Shown: piece after piece, positions 3,562 through 19,064 of the stretch
How positions within the stretch are numbered: the stretch's first letter is position 1
How the letters are laid out: every line of letters begins with the position of its first letter
Virus record (IMG/VR): IMGVR_UViG_3300036861_000171
Span: 1 to 21,155 of that record
Strand: one strand, 5' to 3'
Origin: a virus
Length of the DNA stretch: 21,155 nt
The notes under the pieces: generated by a model
Told to the model about the DNA's origin: nothing
The model's input: the letters and a program-made list of their open reading frames with translations, nothing else
The model's database searches: none
Position numbers and translations under genes: made by a program

Positions 3562-5910
3562 TTAAGCCGGCTCGTAAAGAAAGCCGCATCTTTGCCCAGT
3601 AGAAGCGGCGGCGGTCGAAAGCAAACCGATGGTCCATCCGATGCCCAAGTAGCTGGTCGCTGAGGCGGTGTAGGTCTTACTTCCATATACCCCGGCGGCA
3701 TGCGTAGCGCCGTCGTCGGTGACCACGCCGGCGACCCGGCCATCGGCGGTGCCGGTGGGGAACGCCACGGCCCGCTGTGCCTCCCCGCCCGGCAGCGTCC
3801 ACGAACTCGTGAGCCCGCCCGGGTTGTCGCGGGTGAACGCGGCGGAGATGACAAGGTCGGCGGCGCCGGTGGTGGTCGCGTTCGGAGTGACAACCGTGGC
3901 CGAATCAGCGTTCTTGGTGGATGACTGGTCGACATCCACCAGGGCGAGCTGGTCGGTGCCGGAGTAGGCGACCAGCTGGATCGACCCGTGCGCGTTCACG
4001 GGGGTGCTATCAGTTGCACTCACCACCGTGTTCAATGCAATGGTGCTGCCGGAGTCGCCGGCGGCGGCAGTCTTGCGGTACAGGCGGCTCACCAACTCCC
4101 CAGCGCCGGCGGCGAGCAGCCTTGAGTCGACCGCAGTCCATCCGGTCGGGGCGGTCAGGACCGCGCTGGTGCCGACCGGGCCCATCCACGCGTCGGTCGC
4201 AAGACCCATGTCATCCAGGTACAGATCGTAGGTTTGCGCGACCGAGCTGGCCAGCCCGAAGTTGTAGGATACCCCAGCGGCGGCCATCGTGAACGCAGTC
4301 GAGGAGCCGGAGTCGTCCAGGGTGGTCTCGGACGCGCCGGTGTTCTCGTAGATCCGCACATCGACCGTGGTCGTTGACCCGTTCCAGACCGCCTTCCACT
4401 CCACCCGGTTCCACACGTTCGCGGCGGGGGTAATCGTGCTGGTGTAGCGGGTCGCGCCGGCGGTCAGGTCGCGGATGATGACTTTCCCGGCGGTGTCCAA
4501 CCCGATCCCCCAGTTACTCCCGGTGGTGGGGTTCTGCTGCATCAGCCGGGTGATCTGGGCGGGCAGCGCGGTCCGGTAGTAATACAGCCGGCCGTAGTAG
4601 GTGCTCGGCGAGCCGAATGCAGTACTCCAGGTTGTGCGTGAGGTGGACTGCGCTGTGAGGGTGTGGTGGATCGACGTGGTCCCCGAGTGAGCCTGCGTGC
4701 TCGAGTACACCGGATTGGGGGTCGTGCTCAGCGAATCCCACGGGTTCGATCCCGCCGAGTTCGAATTGCCGGTGGTCACATTGGCGAGGTTGGTGCCCTC
4801 CCCGGCGTTCTTCAAACCGACGCGAGTGCACGTGTGGAACAGCAGCATCCCATCCCCGGCCTGCACCGTAGCCGGGATCACCAGCGTCTGGCTGGCCGAA
4901 TTGCTGTACGCCTTGGTTGCGTCATCCCGGAAGGAGCCCTGGTTGACCGGCGGCGGGTTCAAGCTCATGTCCGGGTTGAAGAACGAGTCGCCCGCCAGCG
5001 CCTTGTACCCGTCCAGCGTGGTGGTGGAGCTGTTGAGGCATTCGCTGGCGCTGGCCGACCCGTTGAAGTACACGGCCGCCTTGATGATGTCGTAGGGGGG
5101 GCTTTTCAGCAGTGCCCGCATGTCGGCGAAGAACTGCGCTTTGGCGTTCGGCTGCCCGCTGACCTCCCGCTTGCCCCACTCAGCCATCATCATCGGCTTG
5201 GTGTGGCTGCCGCTCTTGGTGACCGTCGCCCAGTTCACCATCGGATACTTCGTCGAGAGAACGTACTCGGCGGTGTCACTGGCCGAGGTGTTGCCGTAGG
5301 GGTCGAACCCGATCCAATCTACGTACTGATCGCCCGGATAGAGGGCATTCATCCGGGTTGGGAACTGGGTCTGATACCCGGATGGCTTGAACACCCAGAT
5401 GACATTGGTGGCGCCCTGGGCCACAAAGACATTGTGGATGTGCTGCGCTGCGGAGGCGTACTCCGCGTCGGTCCCGTAGGTGCCGCCACCCTCAGTCGAA
5501 CTGGCGTTCATCTCGTTGTGGAACGCCAAGAAGAACTTGGACCCGAAGTCCCGCATCGCCTGCGCAGTCGGGATCACATAGGACGTATCGTAGGTCCCCG
5601 CGGCGATGTCGGGCCAGCGGAATTGCGTCGTCGTGCCGAAGATCCGGGGAGTCCAGTGGATCAGCAGCAGCCGACCCTCCGCCGCCATCGTCGCCTCACC
5701 ACCACTGGCCGCGAACGAGGTGGTGAAGTCGTTCCAGTCGTGGTAGGCGCTGGCCACGTTGAGGATGCCGTTGGTGGCGGCGGTCCGGTCGATCAGAGTC
5801 TCGTGGTTGCGAAGCCGGGTGAGATCCGAGGTGGCGGCGTCGCAGGAGCTGGACGGGTAGCCACCGAATAAGCAGCCGCTACTCGGAACCAAGATGCTGG
5901 ACAGGCTCAC
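3562..5910 (-). CDS. Tail-tip glycoside hydrolase, GH26-like, with nested LamG and beta-sandwich domains
   Basis: A 782-aa protein, most likely a virion-associated enzyme that cuts a beta-mannan, beta-glucan or other surface polysaccharide during adsorption. Residues about 10-315 match the GH26 layout: GCLFGGY near 12-18, AYHDWNDF at 55-62, LIHWTP at 83-88, the acid/base motif FHNEMN with E133, WIGFDPYG at 199-206 and the nucleophile motif MMAEWG with E244. Residues about 340-360 (VIPATVQAGDGMLLFHT) start a beta-sandwich module that resumes at about 581 (TSAVLTAPTGWTAVDSR) and runs to about 765. A LamG/concanavalin-like domain (about 366-579, ending YDLYLDDMGL) sits in between. GTG start with GGAG upstream. 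A GH26 enzyme in a tail operon argues for a depolymerase-type spike; the substrate cannot be told from sequence. Confidence 0.82.
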   Translation of the reverse strand: MSLSSILVPSSGCLFGGYPSSSCDAATSDLTRLRNHETLIDRTAATNGILNVASAYHDWNDFTTSFAASGGEATMAAEGRLLLIHWTPRIFGTTTQFRWPDIAAGTYDTSYVIPTAQAMRDFGSKFFLAFHNEMNASSTEGGGTYGTDAEYASAAQHIHNVFVAQGATNVIWVFKPSGYQTQFPTRMNALYPGDQYVDWIGFDPYGNTSASDTAEYVLSTKYPMVNWATVTKSGSHTKPMMMAEWGKREVSGQPNAKAQFFADMRALLKSPPYDIIKAAVYFNGSASASECLNSSTTTLDGYKALAGDSFFNPDMSLNPPPVNQGSFRDDATKAYSNSASQTLVIPATVQAGDGMLLFHTCTRVGLKNAGEGTNLANVTTGNSNSAGSNPWDSLSTTPNPVYSSTQAHSGTTSIHHTLTAQSTSRTTWSTAFGSPSTYYGRLYYYRTALPAQITRLMQQNPTTGSNWGIGLDTAGKVIIRDLTAGATRYTSTITPAANVWNRVEWKAVWNGSTTTVDVRIYENTGASETTLDDSGSSTAFTMAAAGVSYNFGLASSVAQTYDLYLDDMGLATDAWMGPVGTSAVLTAPTGWTAVDSRLLAAGAGELVSRLYRKTAAAGDSGSTIALNTVVSATDSTPVNAHGSIQLVAYSGTDQLALVDVDQSSTKNADSATVVTPNATTTGAADLVISAAFTRDNPGGLTSSWTLPGGEAQRAVAFPTGTADGRVAGVVTDDGATHAAGVYGSKTYTASATSYLGIGWTIGLLSTAAASTGQRCGFLYEPA

Positions 5911-6558: not shown

Positions 6559-8535
6559 TCAGTAGGTGTCGGAATAGGTGTCGGAGTAATTACCAACGGA
6601 TGCGATCGCGCCGGCCTGCGCCAACCGGGTCGTCACCCCGAGCTCGCTGCGGCCGGTCACCCCGAGCTGCCACACGTCGTCCACGTCGCCGGGGGAGCAG
6701 TTGAAGCTGAGCGTCCACGTGTCCCCGGTGAACTGCTCCGAGTAGCCCTCTATGAACACGTCGACCGTGCTGGTCGGCGCCTGGCTGGGGAGGTTCGCCA
6801 GGCGGACCTTCGTCGAGATGTCCGCCCCCAGCAGACTCGGGATCAGCGACGCGACCCGCAGATCGTGGAGGTTCACGGTCACGGTCGGAACCCGGATGTG
6901 GGGCTGCCCGTAGGTGTTGACCCGCCACGACGCGGCGCTGGACAGCTCATCCGCCGACCCGGCGGGAATCTCCTGCGAGTCCCGGTACAGCCCGTACTCG
7001 TCGATCGAGGCTTGGTCGGTGAACCGTGCGCTGGCCCCGTCTGGGCGGGAAATGGTGAGGTCGTTGACCACGCCGAAATCGTCAGCGGGGAAAGCGAGGT
7101 CTGGGGCGATGTGGCCCTGCGCGACATCAAGGGTGATCGTGGGGGCGAGATTGTAGCGGCGGCTGCGGTTGTGGAATGTCAGCACCCCTGAACGGGAGAA
7201 GAACAGCACCCCCGACTCGACTGAGGCGGCTTGGCGGAGCGCCTCGATCGGCTGCTGCCCGCTGGTGGACTGCGCCCCCATCGTCCCGTTCCCGACATCA
7301 AAGGACCGGTCGGCAGAAGGGAGGCTGATCCAGTCGGCGATCCGACCGATCCGCTGGTCGGTCCGCTCCCCCGCAAGCCCCGTCAGACCGGCCTGCGCGT
7401 GCGCGGCGACCCTGGCGGCGCTGAGCGCGGCAGAGTGGGCCGCCACATGCGACAGGGTGCCGCTGAACAGGCGGCCCGCCTTCGGATCCCCACCGATCGA
7501 CAGGCGCAAGTAGGTGCTGAGCGCAGTCGTGGTGAACGTGGTCGAGTCGACCTGCGCGCCATCCAGGTACAGCAGAGCAGTCACCGTCGACCCGGAGATC
7601 GACATCGTCAGCGCGCCATGATGGGTGCGGCCATCGTCGACCCGGCTCGAGGACTCAAGGTTGAAATAGTAGCCCCCATCCACCGCGGTCCACGCCGCCG
7701 CAGACAGCTTCCCGGAAGCGGAGATGCGGAGCTCCGCGGTCGCGCCGGCGGGAGTGGACAGCATCCCCACGATCGCGATCGTGCTGACCGTCCCCTCCGC
7801 GCGGAAGAACCCCTCCAACGTGACGCCGGCCGAGCCGACCCCGGTCCGCAGGGTCGCATCCAGCAGCTTCCCCGCGGTGGAGGATGCGGGAGTGAATAGC
7901 GGCGCGGACAGCCGGTCGGTCCCGGGCCCAGTACCGCTGCCGAACTCGAGCGTCCCCCCGCTGCCGACCTGCCGGATCGTCGCCGGGTCCTGCGGCTGCT
8001 TGGTGATGCTCCCCGCCGACGTCGCCTCCGCCTGCTCACTCAGCGGGTAGTACGCGGACCCGTGGGTGGAATCTGCGGCGACCGCGTCGCGGAGGATCTC
8101 CTCCTCGACCATGGAACGGAGCTCACCGGTCTGCCCCAGCCGCTTCGACCGGTCCGTCGCGGTGACCGCCACCCACGACTGTGCCCCGCCGGTGCCCTCC
8201 TCCCACGTCGTCGGCCACTCGTTCACATGCCCATCAAAACGGACATACGTGGTCGACGAATAGATCATTGAGATGCGGATCCGCCGGCCGTTCCGCACGT
8301 TCGGATAGTAGGGGCTCGAGGGGCGGTCGCGGGTGAACCTGCCGTCGGCGTTGTTCAGCAGCAGGCTCATCGTCCCCGGCTGCACGTCAGAGAACTCGTC
8401 CGGGCGGCCCCGCTGAACACCGAGCGGGTTCACCGCCGACGCGTACGCGGAGATGTCGGTCCAGGTCGGCGAGGCAGCCATCGGCTGGGTCGCAAAAGCT
8501 ACTTGCACCAGATGCGACCAAGCGAAATCCGCCAC
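6559..8535 (-). CDS. Distal tail / Tal-like minor tail protein with LamG-like insert
   Basis: A 658-aa structural protein that follows the tape measure gene by 1 nt, the usual place for distal tail and tail-associated proteins. Residues about 1-160 show the tail-hub pattern typical of actinophage minor tail proteins (PDEFSDVQPGTMSLLLNNAD then GRRIRISMIY). Residues about 160-385 look like a LamG/concanavalin-like beta-sandwich: YYPLSEQ opens it, with VTLEGFF, LLYLDGAQVD and GTLSHVAAH further on. The hub-type fold resumes from about 390 (ADWISLP, GVLFFSRSGVLTFHNR) to about 640. The end is a direct repeat, YSDTYSDTY. GTG start; the Shine-Dalgarno is weak, so translation may depend on coupling to the tape measure gene. 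Confidence 0.8.
   Translation of the reverse strand: MADFAWSHLVQVAFATQPMAASPTWTDISAYASAVNPLGVQRGRPDEFSDVQPGTMSLLLNNADGRFTRDRPSSPYYPNVRNGRRIRISMIYSSTTYVRFDGHVNEWPTTWEEGTGGAQSWVAVTATDRSKRLGQTGELRSMVEEEILRDAVAADSTHGSAYYPLSEQAEATSAGSITKQPQDPATIRQVGSGGTLEFGSGTGPGTDRLSAPLFTPASSTAGKLLDATLRTGVGSAGVTLEGFFRAEGTVSTIAIVGMLSTPAGATAELRISASGKLSAAAWTAVDGGYYFNLESSSRVDDGRTHHGALTMSISGSTVTALLYLDGAQVDSTTFTTTALSTYLRLSIGGDPKAGRLFSGTLSHVAAHSAALSAARVAAHAQAGLTGLAGERTDQRIGRIADWISLPSADRSFDVGNGTMGAQSTSGQQPIEALRQAASVESGVLFFSRSGVLTFHNRSRRYNLAPTITLDVAQGHIAPDLAFPADDFGVVNDLTISRPDGASARFTDQASIDEYGLYRDSQEIPAGSADELSSAASWRVNTYGQPHIRVPTVTVNLHDLRVASLIPSLLGADISTKVRLANLPSQAPTSTVDVFIEGYSEQFTGDTWTLSFNCSPGDVDDVWQLGVTGRSELGVTTRLAQAGAIASVGNYSDTYSDTY
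6562..6585 (-). repeat. 12-bp tandem repeat encoding SDTY-SDTY
   Basis: Two copies of a 12-bp unit (ATAGGTGTCGGA and GTAGGTGTCGGA on the + strand) end the 658-aa tail protein gene and encode the C-terminal YSDTYSDTY. One base differs between the copies. The repeat is in frame, so it adds four residues per copy. Confidence 0.7.
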
Positions 8536-12179: not shown

Positions 12180-12190
12180 CCACACTGTGG
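12180..12190. promoter_or_regulatory. Inverted repeat CCACA-C-TGTGG, possible operator
   Basis: An 11-bp inverted repeat with 5-bp arms lies just downstream of the candidate promoter and 33 nt before the GTG start of the membrane protein gene. Its position fits an operator; no protein can be assigned to it from sequence. Confidence 0.3.
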
Positions 12191-12222
12191 ATATCAAAGC
12201 TCACACATCGAGAGGAGCCACA

Positions 12223-12561
12223 GTGAGCACTCAGATCCCACAAACCCCACAGACCCCCGGATGGGGACCGTCCGTTCAGCAGGAGCAGCAGGAGCAGCCG
12301 CATCGCAAGCCGCGCATCTTCATGTGGGTCATCCTAGCGATCAACGCCCTGTTCCTGGTCTGGATCATCATGGGCACGCAGGGAGCCGCCAGCAGCGTGC
12401 AGGATTGCTCGACCCTGACCGGCGACGCGTTGGACATGTGCAACGCAGGCAACACCGGAACGGCGATCGGAGCCAGCATCGGCGTGTTCCTGATCGTTGC
12501 GTTCTGGGCATTCGTCGACGTGATCCTGGGCGTCATCTACCTCGTGACCAGGAAGCGGTAG
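12223..12561 (+). CDS. Small two-span membrane protein, first gene of inverted cassette
   Basis: A 112-aa product starting at GTG 12223 (MSTQIPQTPQTPG), chosen because AGAGGAG lies at 12211-12217; the in-frame codons before it have no ribosome site. Residues 1-30 are Pro/Gln-rich and end in a basic patch (HRKPR). The two membrane segments are at about 33-50 (MWVILAINALFLVWIIM) and 81-108. The loop between them has C62 and C73, which may form a disulfide outside the cell. Small proteins with this Pro/Gln head, two spans and paired Cys are common in actinobacteria and their phages. Function unknown; superinfection immunity or another lysogeny-related trait is possible given the opposite orientation to the virion genes. 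Confidence 0.8.
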   Translation: MSTQIPQTPQTPGWGPSVQQEQQEQPHRKPRIFMWVILAINALFLVWIIMGTQGAASSVQDCSTLTGDALDMCNAGNTGTAIGASIGVFLIVAFWAFVDVILGVIYLVTRKR

Positions 12562-12563
12562 CG

Positions 12564-12746
12564 ATGCCGCAGCTGCTCACCATCGATGAGGCTGCCGCGT
12601 ATCTTCGCCAACCCGTCAAGACCCTACGGAACTGGCGCTCTGAGGGCCGCGGCCCCGCCTCGATGAAGCTCGGCCGGCGGGTCCTCTACGACAAGACCGA
12701 CCTCGATGCCTGGGTCGAGCAACGAAAGCGGAACGGCACACCATGA
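12564..12746 (+). CDS. Excisionase-like HTH DNA-binding protein
   Basis: A 60-aa protein starting MPQLLTIDEAAAYLRQPVKT at ATG 12564, two nt after the membrane protein stop and with AGGAAG upstream. It matches the HTH_17 / MerR-type winged helix of the excisionase family: TIDEAAAYLR forms the HTH start, LRNWRSEGRGP the recognition region and LYDKTDLDAWVEQ the wing and closing helix. In phages such proteins serve as recombination directionality factors or small repressor-like regulators. No integrase or attachment site is visible here, so a regulatory role is equally likely. Its stop overlaps the next start (ATGA). Confidence 0.85.
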   Translation: MPQLLTIDEAAAYLRQPVKTLRNWRSEGRGPASMKLGRRVLYDKTDLDAWVEQRKRNGTP

Positions 12747-13908: not shown

Positions 13909-14391
13909 TTAGAGGAACGACTGCTGCCCAGACCCCGGCCGCGCCTTCCGACGTAGCCCGGCGGCCACGAATCGCCTTCGCTTTTCCTCAAGACAGCGAT
14001 TGCATGCCTGCCCTCCCGACGGCTCGATGTAGATGTTCGCCGGGATCCAAGGATGCCTTCCGTTGCGGCAGAGACCGTTCTTGTTCGGCATTCCACCAAT
14101 ACGGCGAGAGTTCTCTGCGCGAGTGACGATTTCCAGATGTCTCGGGTAGCAGCAGTTCTTCGCGCCGCAGAGATGATCGAGCGTCATGCCCTCGGGGATC
14201 GGGCCGATCAGCAGTTCCCAGACGAGGCGATGCGTCCGAGGACGAGTTCTGGAGCCGACCGGCCAGGTGACAAGACCGTAGCCACCCTTTTCGACGTAGC
14301 CCGTCCACAGCCAGCAGCCGGTCTCGGCATCTGTCCGGATCCTGGCGGCGATCTTCGCCGGCAACATGGACGGGTTGAGTACAGTCTCCAT
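13909..14391 (-). CDS. HNH endonuclease (HNH_3 type), likely homing endonuclease
   Basis: A 160-aa product from ATG 14391 (METVLNPSMLPAKIAARIR). An upstream in-frame GTG at 14436 is less likely because of the ribosome-site hairpin just before 14391. The motif series is that of HNH_3 proteins: GCWLWTGYVEKGGYG at 25-39, THRLVWELLIGPIPEGM at 53-69, LDHLCGAKNC at 71-80 with the catalytic H73, and RHLEIVTRAENSRR at 84-97. A second Cys-His cluster (CRNGRHPW at 108 and CNRC at 130-133) probably forms a zinc finger. It sits between two structural genes with its own leader, the pattern of a mobile intergenic homing endonuclease. Confidence 0.85.
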   Translation of the reverse strand: METVLNPSMLPAKIAARIRTDAETGCWLWTGYVEKGGYGLVTWPVGSRTRPRTHRLVWELLIGPIPEGMTLDHLCGAKNCCYPRHLEIVTRAENSRRIGGMPNKNGLCRNGRHPWIPANIYIEPSGGQACNRCLEEKRRRFVAAGLRRKARPGSGQQSFL

Positions 14392-14393
14392 GG

Positions 14394-14414
14394 CGACACG
14401 CTCCGTTCGTGTCG
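14394..14414 (-). promoter_or_regulatory. RNA hairpin with Shine-Dalgarno in the loop, before the HNH gene
   Basis: In the minus-strand mRNA, CGACACG and CGTGTCG pair perfectly (7 bp) around the loop AACGGAG, and the stem ends two nt before the ATG at 14391. The loop carries the GGAG ribosome site. Such a hairpin can limit ribosome access and so keep endonuclease production low, as is known for T4 homing endonucleases with sequestered ribosome sites. The effect here is inferred. Confidence 0.55.
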
Positions 14415-14470
14415 TCCGGGCCCCGGAGGTCGCCACCTCGCGGGGCCACTTGCCTTACTATTTTACCTGG

Positions 14471-15406
14471 TCAGGCCACTGGAACGGGCATGAGCTGATA
14501 GGTACTGATCAGCGCCTGGTATTTCGGGTTCGCGCGTACGCGAATTATGCCCAGATCAGCCATTCCAATTGCCCCGAACGGGGCGGAGTTGAGCTTGTAG
14601 ATCTCCGCGGCGGCGAGGCGGGTGGCCCGTCTGATGCGGTCGGGCACGGCTGGCCAGCCCCACACCCCGTTGATCTGGACGAGGTCGCTACGGGCCAGAT
14701 GCCACTGCCACAGCCAGGGGAACGTCTGCGTGCCGATGGCTTTGATGCGCCGGTATGGGCGCGGCTCGGGGCTGGCGTTGACGTTGGGGGTGCCGTCGGC
14801 GGTGAGGAGCTGGTAGTCGCTGGTGGCCCAGGTGGTTTCGAACGTGCCGTCCCCGTCCGCGTCGGTTTTGAGGGTGGTGACGGAGACCAGGTCCATGTAG
14901 GCGCCGAGCCGTAGGTGCCACCGGTCGGTGGGGGTGAGGGTGCGGGTCTCGGTGGTCTTGTAGAAGACCCGCTGGCAGTCCCCATCGACCGCGCGGGAGG
15001 CGGTGTTGATGGCTTCTTGGAGGTCGTCGTCGTCGACCGTGTCCGATTGGGGGATGGACAGGCCAGCCTTGAGTTCGGGCAGCGTGGTGTAGACCTGCGC
15101 GGTGGCGATCGGCCGGACGTAGAACTGGCCGTCCTGCGCCTCGGTGAGCGCCCCCGAGGCGACAAACCGATACGTCCAGGTGCCCGGCTGGGAGCAGGCG
15201 CCGACAGCGAGATATGCGCGGACATTGGCGGCTGGTGTGCCAGGGGTGACCGTCGGCGTATCTGCGGTGCCATCCGGGCGGGTGACCGTGGTGGTGACGG
15301 TGACACCCGCCCAGTTCGTGAACAGCGGGTCGGCGGCGGTCAGCGTGTAGGGAAGCTGGTAGGCGTCGCCCTGATCGTAGATTGAGACGGCGACCGTGGC
15401 GGTCAT
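14471..15406 (-). CDS. Head-tail connector (adaptor) protein with N-terminal Ig-like domain
   Basis: A 311-aa protein; ATG 15406 overlaps the stop of the repeat-protein gene (ATGA). Residues about 1-98 are an Ig-like or beta-sandwich domain (DQGDAYQLPYTLTAADPLFT, then PGTWTYRFVASGALTEAQDG and FYVRP). Residues about 108-311 are the gp6/phiE125 gp8-like adaptor: TLPELKAGLSIPQSDTVDDD, LQEAINTASRAVDGDCQRVF with YK, and the C-terminal helix RIRRATRLAAAEIYKLN. The adaptor domain sits under the portal ring. The added N-terminal domain is unusual and could project from the neck or link it to the decoration proteins encoded just before. Confidence 0.78.
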   Translation of the reverse strand: MTATVAVSIYDQGDAYQLPYTLTAADPLFTNWAGVTVTTTVTRPDGTADTPTVTPGTPAANVRAYLAVGACSQPGTWTYRFVASGALTEAQDGQFYVRPIATAQVYTTLPELKAGLSIPQSDTVDDDDLQEAINTASRAVDGDCQRVFYKTTETRTLTPTDRWHLRLGAYMDLVSVTTLKTDADGDGTFETTWATSDYQLLTADGTPNVNASPEPRPYRRIKAIGTQTFPWLWQWHLARSDLVQINGVWGWPAVPDRIRRATRLAAAEIYKLNSAPFGAIGMADLGIIRVRANPKYQALISTYQLMPVPVA

Positions 15407-16401
15407 GTCGGAGTCACACCTCCCTTTGCTTGCCCGGTGGGCCCGGCGGTGCCGCTGTCATGGTTGGCCGGTTGGACGGTGCCGCTGGCCTGATCGGTTA
15501 CGAGGACGCTGCCGGTGTCGTAGCCGGTCAGGATGGTTGTGGCGGTCGCTTGGCTGGCCGGCGTGACGGTGCCGTCGGCGGGGACAAACTCTGGTGGCAG
15601 TACCTGCGGCCACACCGGCTCGAAGAACCGCCCATGGATGCGTGGCCTCGGCACCGGCCGTCGCCGCGCAATGATCGGGCCCGGCCGCCACGCGCTCGGC
15701 TGTGGCGGAATGAACGACCATGGCGGCTCTGCGAACCGTCCACGGCGTGGCTTGGCCGTAGGCCGCCGCCGCGCACAGAAGAACGGCGGCGGTGGTCCCT
15801 GCGGGGTCGGGACCCAGGTGAACCGGCCCCGCCGTGGTGCGCCAGGCGGTGGGCGGTGACCCTGGAGTATCCGTGGGATGAACGCTGGCGGTGCTGGGGC
15901 CGCGGCGCCGACCCAGGGCGGCTCGATGAACTGGCCACGCTTGGGCGGCAACGCCGGACGGCGTGACTGGCGGGTGACCGCCGGGATCGTCGGTGGCGCC
16001 GGGGCGACGACGACTTGTGGCCAGGGTGGTTCGAAGAACTGGCCGCGGCGTCCAAGCAAGCCCCGTCGAGTGCCCTGGGCTTGCCGCTGGAACGGCGCAG
16101 GAGCGCCGGGGACCGGCGGGGTGACCCAGAACTTACCCCGCCGTCCGAGCGTGGACCAGCGGGGCCTGGAACCCGCTTGGCCGACCAGCTCCGGCACCCA
16201 CGTGGGGGCTGCCGTGACGGCCTGCGACCAGGGTGGTTCCGCGAACTGGCCTCGGCGGGACGGCCCGAGCCGCCGGCTCGGCTGCCCGGCCTGCTGTGTC
16301 TGCTCCGGAATCCACGTCGGCGCCGCTGGGGTGACCTGTGGCCAGGGTGGTTCGAAGAACTGGCCGCGGCGTGGCCACGCGGCCCGCCAGCGCCGCAGCA
16401 T
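15403..16401 (-). CDS. Pro/Arg/Trp repeat protein with A-A-B superrepeats and decapeptide tail
   Basis: A 332-aa, very basic protein; ATG 16401 follows GGAG by six nt. It has eight repeats that begin with (R/K)RG(Q/R/K)F or a close variant, at residues 11, 49, 87, 118, 154, 190, 219 and 254. Six are long (35-38 aa) with FxEPPW or FFEPVW after the start; two (87 and 190) are short (29-31 aa) with FWVTPP or FTWVPTP instead. The order is A-A-B-A-A-B-A-A. Residues 277-332 change to a ten-residue repeat of the type GTVTPASQAT / GTVQPANHDS. The protein is probably extended. It is encoded between the decoration genes and the connector, so it may be a head or neck component. No function is recognised. 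Confidence 0.75.
   Translation of the reverse strand: MLRRWRAAWPRRGQFFEPPWPQVTPAAPTWIPEQTQQAGQPSRRLGPSRRGQFAEPPWSQAVTAAPTWVPELVGQAGSRPRWSTLGRRGKFWVTPPVPGAPAPFQRQAQGTRRGLLGRRGQFFEPPWPQVVVAPAPPTIPAVTRQSRRPALPPKRGQFIEPPWVGAAAPAPPAFIPRILQGHRPPPGAPRRGRFTWVPTPQGPPPPFFCARRRPTAKPRRGRFAEPPWSFIPPQPSAWRPGPIIARRRPVPRPRIHGRFFEPVWPQVLPPEFVPADGTVTPASQATATTILTGYDTGSVLVTDQASGTVQPANHDSGTAGPTGQAKGGVTPT
16016..16051 (-). repeat. 36-bp exact direct repeat, copy 1
   Basis: These 36 bases are identical to 16337-16372, 321 nt away. Both encode the best-conserved part of an A-type repeat (RRGQFFEPPWPQ). The distance equals exactly 107 codons, the length of one A-A-B triad, so the repeat marks a duplication of the whole triad. 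Confidence 0.9.
16337..16372 (-). repeat. 36-bp exact direct repeat, copy 2
   Basis: Second copy of the 36-base sequence at 16016-16051. The flanking bases diverge, so the identity is confined to the RRGQFFEPPWPQ core; this fits either a recent exchange between copies or strong selection on the core. Confidence 0.9.
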
Positions 16402-16421: not shown

Positions 16422-16880
16422 CTAGTTGGTGACGGCGCAGGTCAGATGGCCAGTCGGCTGAGTGCTTTGGGCCGTTGTATAGATGTAGCCATTCGGCGTC
16501 TGGCCACTCGACAGCGGCTGACCATTCAGGGTCGGCTTCCACCAAACCGGAACAGGGACGTTCGGGAAGCTGAACGCGATCGAGAGAGCGGTCTCACCAG
16601 ATGGGCAATCGATCCGTCCGGTGTAGTCCGAGTAGAAGATATCCACGACATGCACGCCTGCGAGGCCGGGCGGGCCGGTCTGGTTCCAGTTGAGCGCCGT
16701 GTAGCCGCTCGGGCAGGAGGCGGCCGAGTCGATGGCGATCAGCGCGCCCTGCGCTGGGTTGCTGGTCTTGTAGCAGCCATGGATGACGCCGTCCGGGCCG
16801 GGGATCGAGGCGTAGGCGATGCCCGCACCGACGCCGATGAGCAAGAGCGCCGCAACAACCAGCGCGATTCGCTTCCTCAA
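16422..16880 (-). CDS. Secreted protein with signal peptide and actinobacterial GVIHGCY domain
   Basis: A 152-aa product with a clear signal peptide (MRKRIALVVAALLLIGVGAG, then IAYAS) and likely cleavage near residue 25. The mature part opens with IPGPDGVIHGCYKTSNPAQG, followed by SCPSGYTALNWNQTGPPGLA. This opening is common in secreted or surface proteins of actinobacteria, often before collagen-like regions. The Cys at 36, 56, 92 and 148 may form disulfides. TTG start with GAGGAGG upstream, overlapping the stop of the endonuclease gene (TTGA). A secreted protein inside a virion operon is unusual and may be a host-derived moron, for example for lysogenic conversion or superinfection exclusion. 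Confidence 0.75.
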   Translation of the reverse strand: MRKRIALVVAALLLIGVGAGIAYASIPGPDGVIHGCYKTSNPAQGALIAIDSAASCPSGYTALNWNQTGPPGLAGVHVVDIFYSDYTGRIDCPSGETALSIAFSFPNVPVPVWWKPTLNGQPLSSGQTPNGYIYTTAQSTQPTGHLTCAVTN

Positions 16881-17515
16881 GCTTCCTCCTCATCTGGCAG
16901 ATGCTTCCAGGACTTGCGAAGGACGATCATGCTTACCATCGCCTGCGTGATCCCGAACCGCGCCCCGACCTCAGCTTGCTTCATGCCGCCCGCAGCCAAC
17001 GCACGGATCTCGCGGACCTGCATCTCGGTGAGCCTCGCCATTCCATGCGACTCTCCCCGGGCACGAATCCGATCCTCGCGCGCTGGCAACTCAACAGGGC
17101 CAGCACGGTGCCGTTCGATGTAGTCGGCCAGAGCGCGGAGGATAACGGGATCATCCTGCACTTGGCCGAGTGCCGCGTTGCAGCTGTGGCAGAGCAGGCT
17201 ACGGAAGTTGCCGGTCACGTGGTCGTGATCGACATGGAGCCGCCGGAATGGGTGCTTCTGTGCGCGCTTGCAAACGGCACATTCGCCGCCCTGCGCCTTC
17301 ACCAGTGCCTTGTACTGGGATGCGCTCAGGCCATTCCGCCATGCCTGGTAGTACTCGGGATTCTGCTCGTTCCAGCGCTTGCGAGATGCGGCTAGGCAGT
17401 CGTGGCATTGGTTGGCTAGCCCATCAGGCTGTGCTCGGTTGCGGCCGAAGGCAGTGAGTGGCAACTCTGCGCGGCAATCGGAACAGACTTTTCGATCTCC
17501 TACGGCGAGGGGCAT
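16877..17515 (-). CDS. Endonuclease VII-type HNH endonuclease with C-terminal HTH
   Basis: A 212-aa protein from ATG 17515 (MPLAVGDRKVCSDCRAELPL), with GGAAGGAG seven nt upstream; an upstream TTG in the same frame overlaps that site and is rejected. Residues about 10-50 hold a zinc-ribbon-like part (CSDC, CHDC). Residues about 65-135 are the recombination endonuclease VII fold: CAVCKRAQKHPF with C79 and C82, HVDHDHVTG at 94-102, and LLCHSCNAALG at 107-117. Residues about 158-205 are an HTH of the type seen in homing endonucleases (MARLTEMQVREIRALAAGGM, then GITQAMVSMIV). It is inserted between structural genes and followed at once by a secreted protein gene. Probably a free-standing homing endonuclease; a true Holliday-junction role is less likely here. 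Confidence 0.85.
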   Translation of the reverse strand: MPLAVGDRKVCSDCRAELPLTAFGRNRAQPDGLANQCHDCLAASRKRWNEQNPEYYQAWRNGLSASQYKALVKAQGGECAVCKRAQKHPFRRLHVDHDHVTGNFRSLLCHSCNAALGQVQDDPVILRALADYIERHRAGPVELPAREDRIRARGESHGMARLTEMQVREIRALAAGGMKQAEVGARFGITQAMVSMIVLRKSWKHLPDEEEA

Positions 17516-17558
17516 TGGGTCTCCTTCCAACACCCCTTATCTTACTCCTTTCTACTCC

Positions 17559-18059
17559 TCATTCTTCATGTTCTAAGGCAAGCGTGTACTTGTGCAGCGA
17601 GGGGAGCGCGTTGTCGAGGTTGATGAACGCGATCCCGTTGGCGATACCGATCCCGCAGACCAGTTCCTCCAGCAGCTCGAACGGCAGGTCGACGCCCGAC
17701 TGGGTGTTGAAGGTCACCTGGTAGAGGTAGGGCGGGGTCCAAGTGGCGGTTGGTACCGTCGACCAGGCGGTGTCGAGGCCGGTGATACTGGAGGTCTGCA
17801 ACGAGTTGGGGTCCATCGCCTTCGGCGCAAGCGTGGTGGTTGCGGTGCCGCGACCGGTGGTCCGCACGAGGCCGACACTGGCCTGCATGGAGGTCGGTGA
17901 GGCGGTAGAGGCGACGACGCCAAGAGTGATCCGGCGCAGCTTATAGCCGCAGGTCGCCGACGCGTTCAGGTTGGCGAACAGCGCGTTGGCGGTGGCGCCA
18001 GTGGGAGCGGTGGCCACGATCGCCGCGGCGGACTCGACGTTGGTTGTGTACCGGGCCAA
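17559..18059 (-). CDS. Virion structural protein, 'MAR' family, copy 2
   Basis: A 166-aa beta-rich product starting MARYTTNVESAAAIVATAPT at TTG 18059, with AAAGGGGG upstream. CGYKLRRITLGVVASTASPT and VGLVRTTGRGT are the recognisable core of a small phage or prophage structural family of the type 'relation to a reference axis - L.R....GT'. It resembles the 147-aa protein encoded at 19085-19528 in length, opening, core and ending (GIGIANGIAFINL against ANGLGLISING). It is likely a paralogue. Probable role: head decoration or fibre base; not proved by sequence alone. Confidence 0.65.
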   Translation of the reverse strand: MARYTTNVESAAAIVATAPTGATANALFANLNASATCGYKLRRITLGVVASTASPTSMQASVGLVRTTGRGTATTTLAPKAMDPNSLQTSSITGLDTAWSTVPTATWTPPYLYQVTFNTQSGVDLPFELLEELVCGIGIANGIAFINLDNALPSLHKYTLALEHEE

Positions 18060-18075: not shown

Positions 18076-18249
18076 TTAGAAGAATCCTTGGTACTGGCTG
18101 ACCTGTGGCGGCACTTTCCCGACGCGTCGGAACAGCAGCAGGATAAGCAGATCCTCGAAGTTGGCGAGGCGCACCCACGCCAGCGTGACCACGACGATCA
18201 GGCCGTAGAGCAGGGCGGCGGCTCCGATGACGATCCATGCGATGGGCAT
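18076..18249 (-). CDS. 57-aa single-span membrane protein ending in SQYQGFF
   Basis: A small gene found from the TAATG overlap with the upstream gene (stop and start share one base). It encodes MPIAWIVIGAAALLYGLIVV, VTLAWVRLANFEDLLILLLF and a basic tail (RRVGKVPPQVSQYQGFF). One membrane span lies at about residues 3-26 and a second hydrophobic stretch at 33-40. The C-terminal SQYQGFF matches the ending of the upstream 271-aa protein (SQYAGYF). A membrane protein between structural genes is unusual. It may be a host-interaction protein or a small scaffold-type partner of the upstream protein. Confidence 0.65.
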   Translation of the reverse strand: MPIAWIVIGAAALLYGLIVVVTLAWVRLANFEDLLILLLFRRVGKVPPQVSQYQGFF

Positions 18250-19064
18250 TAGAAGTACCCCGCGTACTGGCTGATCTGCTGCAGCGCTCTACCAGCCGGT
18301 GGGGCGGCCCCGGATGGGTTGAGCGCGAGGATCGTGCCCTGCCCGACCGCCGAGTCGGTGATCGTCACCACTTCTGAGGTCGCCGCGGCGGTGCCCTGCG
18401 GCAGGTACTGCAAGTCGCCCCAGACGTTGGTGACTGCCGCGATCGAGCATTGGTTGATCGCGCCGGTGTCGGTCCACCCGGACGCGACGCTGATGGTCTG
18501 GGTGATGCCGGCGCCGACCTTCCCACCCCAGACCAGCACGAGCATCGCGAGGTTCTCGTCGGGGGTGAGCGTCCCCGACGTGTAGGTCCCGCTGGAGGCT
18601 TGGGCGGTCTGCTGGAAGTCGTTGTCGTTCGGGCCGAACGGATGGGTGGTGTCGACCCCACGGAACGCGGCCGCATGCGTGGACCAAGACCGGGCGGTCG
18701 ACAGGGTGAATCCTGGTGCGGTGTCTCCGGTGACGAAGAATCGGGTATAGGTCGCGGTTCGGATCGACGTGTCACTCAGGTCCGAGATGAGCGTCATCGT
18801 CGCGCCGCTGGTCTGGCTAATGGTGGTCGGGGTGCCGCCCGACCCGTAGGTCACCTCGAGGACGACCAGGTCCCCGTCGGTGAAGTCGCCGGTGGGCCAT
18901 GCGGTCGTGACGGCGGTACCCTGCGCGGTCGCTGCGGTGGTCCCGTCGGTGCCGACCTTGATGATCGGGGAGACCGCCCCGGCGGCAGACGCCGGCTTGA
19001 TAATGCGGGTGCCGAGCCGCGCCCGGGGCAGCCTTGGTCGGCGGATCGGCCGGAGGACCGGCAT
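18249..19064 (-). CDS. Virion beta-sandwich protein, copy 2, ending in SQYAGYF
   Basis: A 271-aa protein starting MPVLRPIRRPRLPRARLGTR; this Arg/Pro-rich head (about 1-25) is very basic. The body is a beta-sandwich with the features of the 253-aa protein at 19532-20293: GDLVVLEVTYGSGG, a central RTATYTRFFVTGD, AAFRGVDTTHPFG and later LVLVWGGKVGAGI. The same fold is seen in the GH26 tail protein. It ends in QQISQYAGYF. ATG 19064 with GGGGGTGA upstream. Likely a head decoration or fibre protein given its place between the capsid side and the connector. Confidence 0.65.
   Translation of the reverse strand: MPVLRPIRRPRLPRARLGTRIIKPASAAGAVSPIIKVGTDGTTAATAQGTAVTTAWPTGDFTDGDLVVLEVTYGSGGTPTTISQTSGATMTLISDLSDTSIRTATYTRFFVTGDTAPGFTLSTARSWSTHAAAFRGVDTTHPFGPNDNDFQQTAQASSGTYTSGTLTPDENLAMLVLVWGGKVGAGITQTISVASGWTDTGAINQCSIAAVTNVWGDLQYLPQGTAAATSEVVTITDSAVGQGTILALNPSGAAPPAGRALQQISQYAGYF

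Follow-up and report, generated by a model that had tools for sequence, protein, structure and literature searches.

RRGxFxxPP repeat proteins and their conserved partner in virion gene regions of putative actinobacterial phages

The repeat gene of the window and its neighbours

The window analysed comprises 21,155 nucleotides of the IMG/VR virus record IMGVR_UViG_3300036861_000171 (positions 1 to 21,155). It carries at 15403..16401, on the minus strand, an ATG-initiated gene for a repeat protein of 332 amino acids, the RRGxFxEPPW-type member of a family of RRGxFxxPP repeat proteins. The protein has a pI of about 12 and contains 12% Arg, 20% Pro and 4% Trp. It begins with the signature MLRRWRAAWP (16372..16401, minus strand), followed by RRGxF. 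Eight units, delimited by the unit profile and all on the minus strand, make up the array. Long units with EPPW are units 1 (residues 11-48; 16258..16371), 2 (49-86; 16144..16257), 4 (118-153; 15943..16050), 5 (154-189; 15835..15942) and 7 (219-253; 15643..15747); short units are unit 3 (87-117; 16051..16143), with FWVTPP, and unit 6 (190-218; 15748..15834), with FTWVPTP. The last one, unit 8 (254-275; 15577..15642), reads IHGRFFEPVW. Long units of this protein measure 35-38 amino acids and short units 29-31. The motif was counted five times, against 0.0 times in 2,000 composition-preserving shuffles. The preliminary description had placed repeat starts at residues 11, 49, 87, 118, 154, 190, 219 and 254, and all eight were recovered; the RRGxFx(E)PPW-type repeats of this minus-strand frame are real. 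The C-terminal tail (residues 276-332; 15406..15576, minus strand; read directly) consists of a second repeat of about 10 residues, G-[TS]-V-x7, in about 5.5 copies (GTVTPASQAT / ... / GSVLVTDQAS / GTVQPANHDS). This tail, which is not built of the repeat units, was absent from the earlier account.

The stop of the repeat gene overlaps by 4 nt (ATGA), both in the window and in locus L001, the start of a gene for a head-tail adaptor with an extra N-terminal beta domain (14471..15406, minus strand; phrog_442 by PHROG match), in agreement with the proposed membership of a virion operon. On the other side, and on the same strand, lie a small protein whose N-terminal part includes a hydrophobic, signal-like stretch (16422..16880) and for which L016 has a similar gene in the same place; a conserved 166-aa partner, MARY...EWEE/EHEE, predicted to be a beta-sandwich (17559..18059); and a beta-rich virion-type protein ending in ...QYAGYF (18249..19064). 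The small protein carries the stretch 'SIPGPDGVIHGCYK...TGPPG'. Two HNH/endonuclease VII-type genes, both on the minus strand, interrupt the virion operon: one (16877-17533; phrog_2633) between the partner and the small exported-looking protein, and one recognised by eye (13909-14436) between the adaptor and the tail terminator, where L001 also has one. The minus-strand tail operon contains, on the plus strand (12187-12746), an ORF of membrane type and another of excisionase-like helix-turn-helix type.

Codon-level constraint, whose absence had been named earlier as a refuting condition, is present over the seven pairs of relatives compared: the Nei-Gojobori dN/dS of the repeat gene was 0.25-0.50 in six pairs and 0.73 in one (L065/L082), and that of the adaptor and the partner was about 0.2. 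AlphaFold assigned no secondary structure to the repeat protein (pLDDT 51.8, pTM 0.14). An extended rod or a binding scaffold had been suggested; an extended scaffold is plausible because no globular fold is predicted, but the AlphaFold model contains no ordered structure that would correspond to a rod. The absent fold agrees with an extended or disordered chain but is weak evidence for it, as the low confidence was obtained on a shallow alignment of repeats.

The repeat family and its 166-aa partner

A profile made from the eight units of the window, one of the checks proposed, matched 21 of 7,556 ORFs at E<=0.01, each of them the equivalent ORF. The iterated unit profile (consensus RRGrFfepPwpqvapaaPpwvPqflrqagrRP), trained on most of the loci that it matches, detected 44 of the 7,556 ORFs, one per locus and no others. 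With it, 314 units of the family exceeded 5 bits, versus 0-3 in shuffled copies. Over 303 aligned units the fixed positions were R1 (100%), R2 (94%), G3 (91%), F5 (62%), P9 (77%), P22 (94%) and R31 (96%), and position 10 was W in 33% and P in 32%. By this alignment the window protein, with its EPPW core, represents one subtype within the family. The number of units ranged from one (L045, 82 aa) to about 20 (L017, 732 aa). Stand-alone members share a plan in which an MxRRWR...RRGxF start, common to nearly all of them, is followed by the unit array and by a tail of 9-10-residue repeats or of an RWxxGxP repeat. The N-terminus of the window protein, MLRRWRAAWPRRGQF, fits this start, of which columns R3, R6 and R12 were invariant in 17 sequences. 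The tail repeat differs in sequence by clade (GTVTPASQAT, TVTVDAYSA, GTVAISDVLA, LVTDGHTTG). In the proteins of L070, L060, L064 and L056 the TVTVDAY-type repeats are followed by the same final residues, ATNCGR, which form a conserved C-terminus containing Cys.

No family of Pfam, PHROG or NCBIfam matched the window protein or at least four relatives, fusion proteins being matched through their non-repeat parts only, and a PDB sequence-profile search with a 17-sequence profile gave no match up to E=1. The preliminary description, which could name no family, is borne out by these searches, and judged from sequence the repeat protein founds a previously unlisted family. Searches of INPHARED with the whole protein and a two-unit consensus, run with a low-complexity filter that may hide repeats, returned no match. 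The family was absent from all 50,697 phage records searched, low-complexity filtering possibly hiding repeats in part of these searches, so that no cultured model is known. Pattern searches of IMG/VR with the N-terminal signature RRWRG...RR...F gave chance matches only, and a general RRGxFxVPP DNA pattern gave none; L008, which matched the EPPW pattern, was likewise a chance match and was dropped. No description of the family was found in the literature on Arg/Pro-rich virion repeats, Frankia prophages and polyproline phage proteins.

Searches with the protein, the motif and the alignment brought up members in five further IMG/VR contigs, and also in regions resembling prophages in Candidatus Frankia meridionalis and in a Micromonosporaceae MAG; therefore at least some of the hosts are actinobacteria, and the carriers are probably phages of uncultured soil-type actinobacteria. 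All repeat-based matches came from a contig or prophage that also encodes the 166-aa partner. In the IMG/VR and prophage members the partner has 155-167 aa, keeps the MARY...EWEE pattern and is always located 5' of the repeat gene. A scan with the partner protein gave 55 viral loci, 41 of which (duplicate contigs counted) have a unit-profile ORF immediately downstream; several of the others stop at a contig edge or hold diverged units recognised by eye (L039, L041, L054, L057, L085, L087). Of 395 genomes sampled from the class to which the Frankia genome belongs, only this genome itself has the partner, and the family is therefore rare in cultured hosts. AlphaFold2 predicted the partner confidently as a beta-sandwich (pLDDT 89.5, pTM 0.86), with uncharacterised phage proteins as best structural relatives (TM 0.6-0.7). 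Matches in the PDB were weak ones to viral jelly rolls (TM 0.2-0.4) and were not used for naming.

Array turnover, genome position and fusions

The A-A-B-A-A-B-A-A order of long (A) and short (B) units noted previously is true of the window protein, for which only 28 arrangements of two short units among eight exist, but it is not a strict higher-order period, as the orders of relatives differ. In L001, the third and the seventh of nine units are short (A-A-B-A-A-A-B-A-A), and the orders in L004 and L016 are irregular. The nearest relatives do have in common one short unit as the third of the array and another as the third from its end; a strict A-A-B superrepeat was rejected as a family trait. 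The window and L001 share an 86%-identical DNA block (window 14024-16050) that takes in the adaptor and half of the repeat gene and has its edge at the first base of unit 4. The C-terminal halves are nearly letter-identical, and residues 1-189 overall are just 49% identical; units 1 and 2 of the window are closer to each other than to any unit of L001. Because of this block edge and the likeness of units 1 and 2, arrays seem to grow, shrink and swap through recombination at unit boundaries, and the last units and the tail seem to be inherited en bloc.

P30 of PRD1 is a tape-measure protein, a basic extended capsid polypeptide. By a mechanism analogy only, no sequence relation having been found, the repeat protein might be a capsid tape measure or a glue along the facets whose repeat number is set by capsid size. 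It is likewise basic and extended, with tandem units in variable number, but this number varies between close relatives (eight units in the window versus nine in L001 in spite of the shared block). Moreover, the repeat proteins of L015 and L017 are 70% identical, but their capsid proteins match different families, and cassettes occur in tail regions too; there is very little chance that this explanation holds.

The adaptor is the next gene after the repeat gene in 24 of the 44 loci, the repeat gene lying in tail or terminase regions in others. The cassette is 3' of the tape measure gene in L057 and L085 and 5' of terminase/portal in L045 and L065. Homologues of the adaptor unaccompanied by a repeat protein are present in Rhodococcus and Pontimonas phages, and the Micromonosporaceae MAG named above has, in L035, a second adaptor without the repeat protein. 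The homologous phrog_442 adaptor and a similar neck/tail gene order are seen in Rhodococcus phages REQ1/Madraxi and in Pontimonas phage phiPsal1, but no repeat protein is present there, and the slot is taken in phiPsal1 by glycosyltransferase and methyltransferase genes. As cassette positions vary, adaptors occur apart from repeats and the capsids of L015 and L017 differ, sequence comparison indicates that the repeat protein is specific neither to a single capsid type nor to the neck. A placement confined to the head or neck, as had been proposed, is not supported in view of the positions in L057, L085, L045 and L065 and of the tail and lectin-like fusions described below. A neck-assembly factor would also be compatible with the commonest position, which overlaps or adjoins the adaptor gene. 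Such a non-structural or transient head-tail joining factor would act in assembly as an unfolded chaperone or scaffold, bringing together either adaptor subunits or the partner; the 4-nt overlap in the window and L001 and the adjacency in 24 of 44 loci speak for it, but the four loci with the cassette away from the adaptor, and the adaptors of Rhodococcus and Pontimonas phages and of the MAG, which have no repeat protein, make it unlikely. L015:80-3244 encodes a capsid-protease fusion with a peptidoglycan-binding domain (PF01471, E 1e-16; phrog_29592). L017:9928-10338, in the tail gene region, encodes a 137-aa His/Arg/Lys-rich protein with HRRKG-like repeats and no Pfam match.

Several relatives carry the array within larger proteins. 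In L059 it stands behind a beta domain whose counterpart in L070, L004 and L077 is a separate gene immediately 5' of that for the partner (38-43% identity, E 5e-22 to 3e-40, pairwise BLAST). In L078 the N-terminal domain matches the separate upstream gene of L017 (E 9e-7) and also part of the GH26 tail protein of the window (E 3e-15; both by pairwise BLAST), and L061 and L052 have the same fusion plan. In L004, L070, L077 and L017 the slot equivalent to that of the window protein at 18249..19064 is occupied by proteins that L059 and L078 have in fusion with the repeats. The beta domains of the fusions escaped a profile built from the separate upstream beta proteins, but pairwise BLAST detected them. 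A Laminin_G_3 domain sits between RRG units in L047 (E 7e-9). In L057, RRG units are fused N-terminally to a phrog_5313 protein; the Laminin-G tail protein encoded in the window itself (phrog_5313 / Laminin_G_3; 6559-8535) belongs to this family but has no RRG units. In L085 an RRWR start is joined to a minor tail protein (phrog_1885). Through these fusions, whose other parts are beta-domain, Laminin-G or minor tail proteins, the repeat protein is linked with beta-domain proteins of the exterior or the tail. The GH26 tail-region protein of the window (3562-5910, minus strand) has a glycosyl hydrolase family 26 domain (PF02156, E 1.5e-7).

The fusions also bear on two explanations based on composition. 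An internal, packaged protamine-like protein, which would coat or condense the phage DNA in the head and be ejected with it, agrees with the pI of about 12, with Arg at 12-16% and acidic residues below 5%, and with the location of the gene mostly between capsid-region genes and the adaptor; the Arg-rich chain could equally bind DNA. It is nevertheless a rather unlikely explanation: an exterior or tail protein would better account for the Laminin-G and minor-tail fusions and for the cassettes located 3' of the tape measure gene, and the conserved Phe/Pro/Trp pattern is more than charge neutralisation needs. The second is a released or virion-borne cationic polymer, active on membrane or wall, that weakens the host envelope at entry or lysis. 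Trp- and Pro-rich antimicrobial peptides are a described class (PMC6017362), and the composition of the repeat protein is similar to that of Trp/Pro/Arg-rich peptides of this kind, a resemblance only. Unlike them, it is long and multi-unit, is encoded in a virion operon, has no signal peptide for secretion, and has units that lie within, or are joined to, large beta-domain virion proteins; this explanation is very unlikely.

Proposed role of the repeat protein

Tentatively, the repeat protein may well be an extended, mostly unfolded, polycationic multi-motif scaffold or tether of the virion exterior that acts with the partner; its presence in virions and its exterior position are what we infer. 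The long chain would carry eight RRG-x-F-x-x-P-P-[W/P] linear motifs (one to about 20 in relatives) and would probably form a multivalent extended tether or mortar outside the particle. Its Arg/aromatic/Pro motifs may dock on a repeated surface, for which the beta-sandwich partner or the capsid/tail lattice are candidates, or alternatively on anionic host wall polymers. Docking would keep beta-sandwich or lectin-like domains at a distance from the particle; the docking surface, the ligand and any adhesive role are presumptive. A more speculative proposal, which we regard as doubtful, is that the partner and the disordered RRGxFxxPP array form a portable cassette put at varied late-gene positions by actinobacterial phages, with the array as a mortar of tunable length displaying interchangeable lectin-like domains on head or tail.

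Among the closest known systems are phage capsid decoration proteins and head fibres (PMC7602432). Like the repeat gene in its commonest position, their accessory late genes lie between capsid and neck genes; variability among close relatives and beta-sandwich partners are also shared, but the known ones are mostly folded domains, and none in the libraries searched has arrays of RRGxFxxPP units. The previously unlisted repeat family is an addition to the unexplained genes of actinobacterial phages; its modules are defined and its partner is clear, and the fixed partner and the natural fusions make it testable. If the reading as an exterior scaffold is true, tailed phages would build adjustable surface tethers from short linear motifs and not from folded fibres, and there would be a sequence handle for spotting such phages in soil metagenomes.

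Glycosyltransferase-like genes were observed 5' of the cassette in L016:38-1472, L004:467-2036 and L032:582-2161, so that surface glycosylation is possible. Near the 166-aa partner, L142:6668-10294 and L144:2326-6180 encode proteins of 1,208 and 1,284 aa, respectively, giant diverged versions in which beta domains are followed by a different basic Pro-rich repeat (PRSRIRLLGAFRS...QKVPAPVISTVLQ in L144) and by short-period tails. Other tandem repeats near the partner are xDSAxASD (L054:6514-8316), SLAVTAGITA (L058:6824-8938), SIPSGESWGTPT (L085:6361-7719) and RxLxAxVxAxA (L076:6469-8328).
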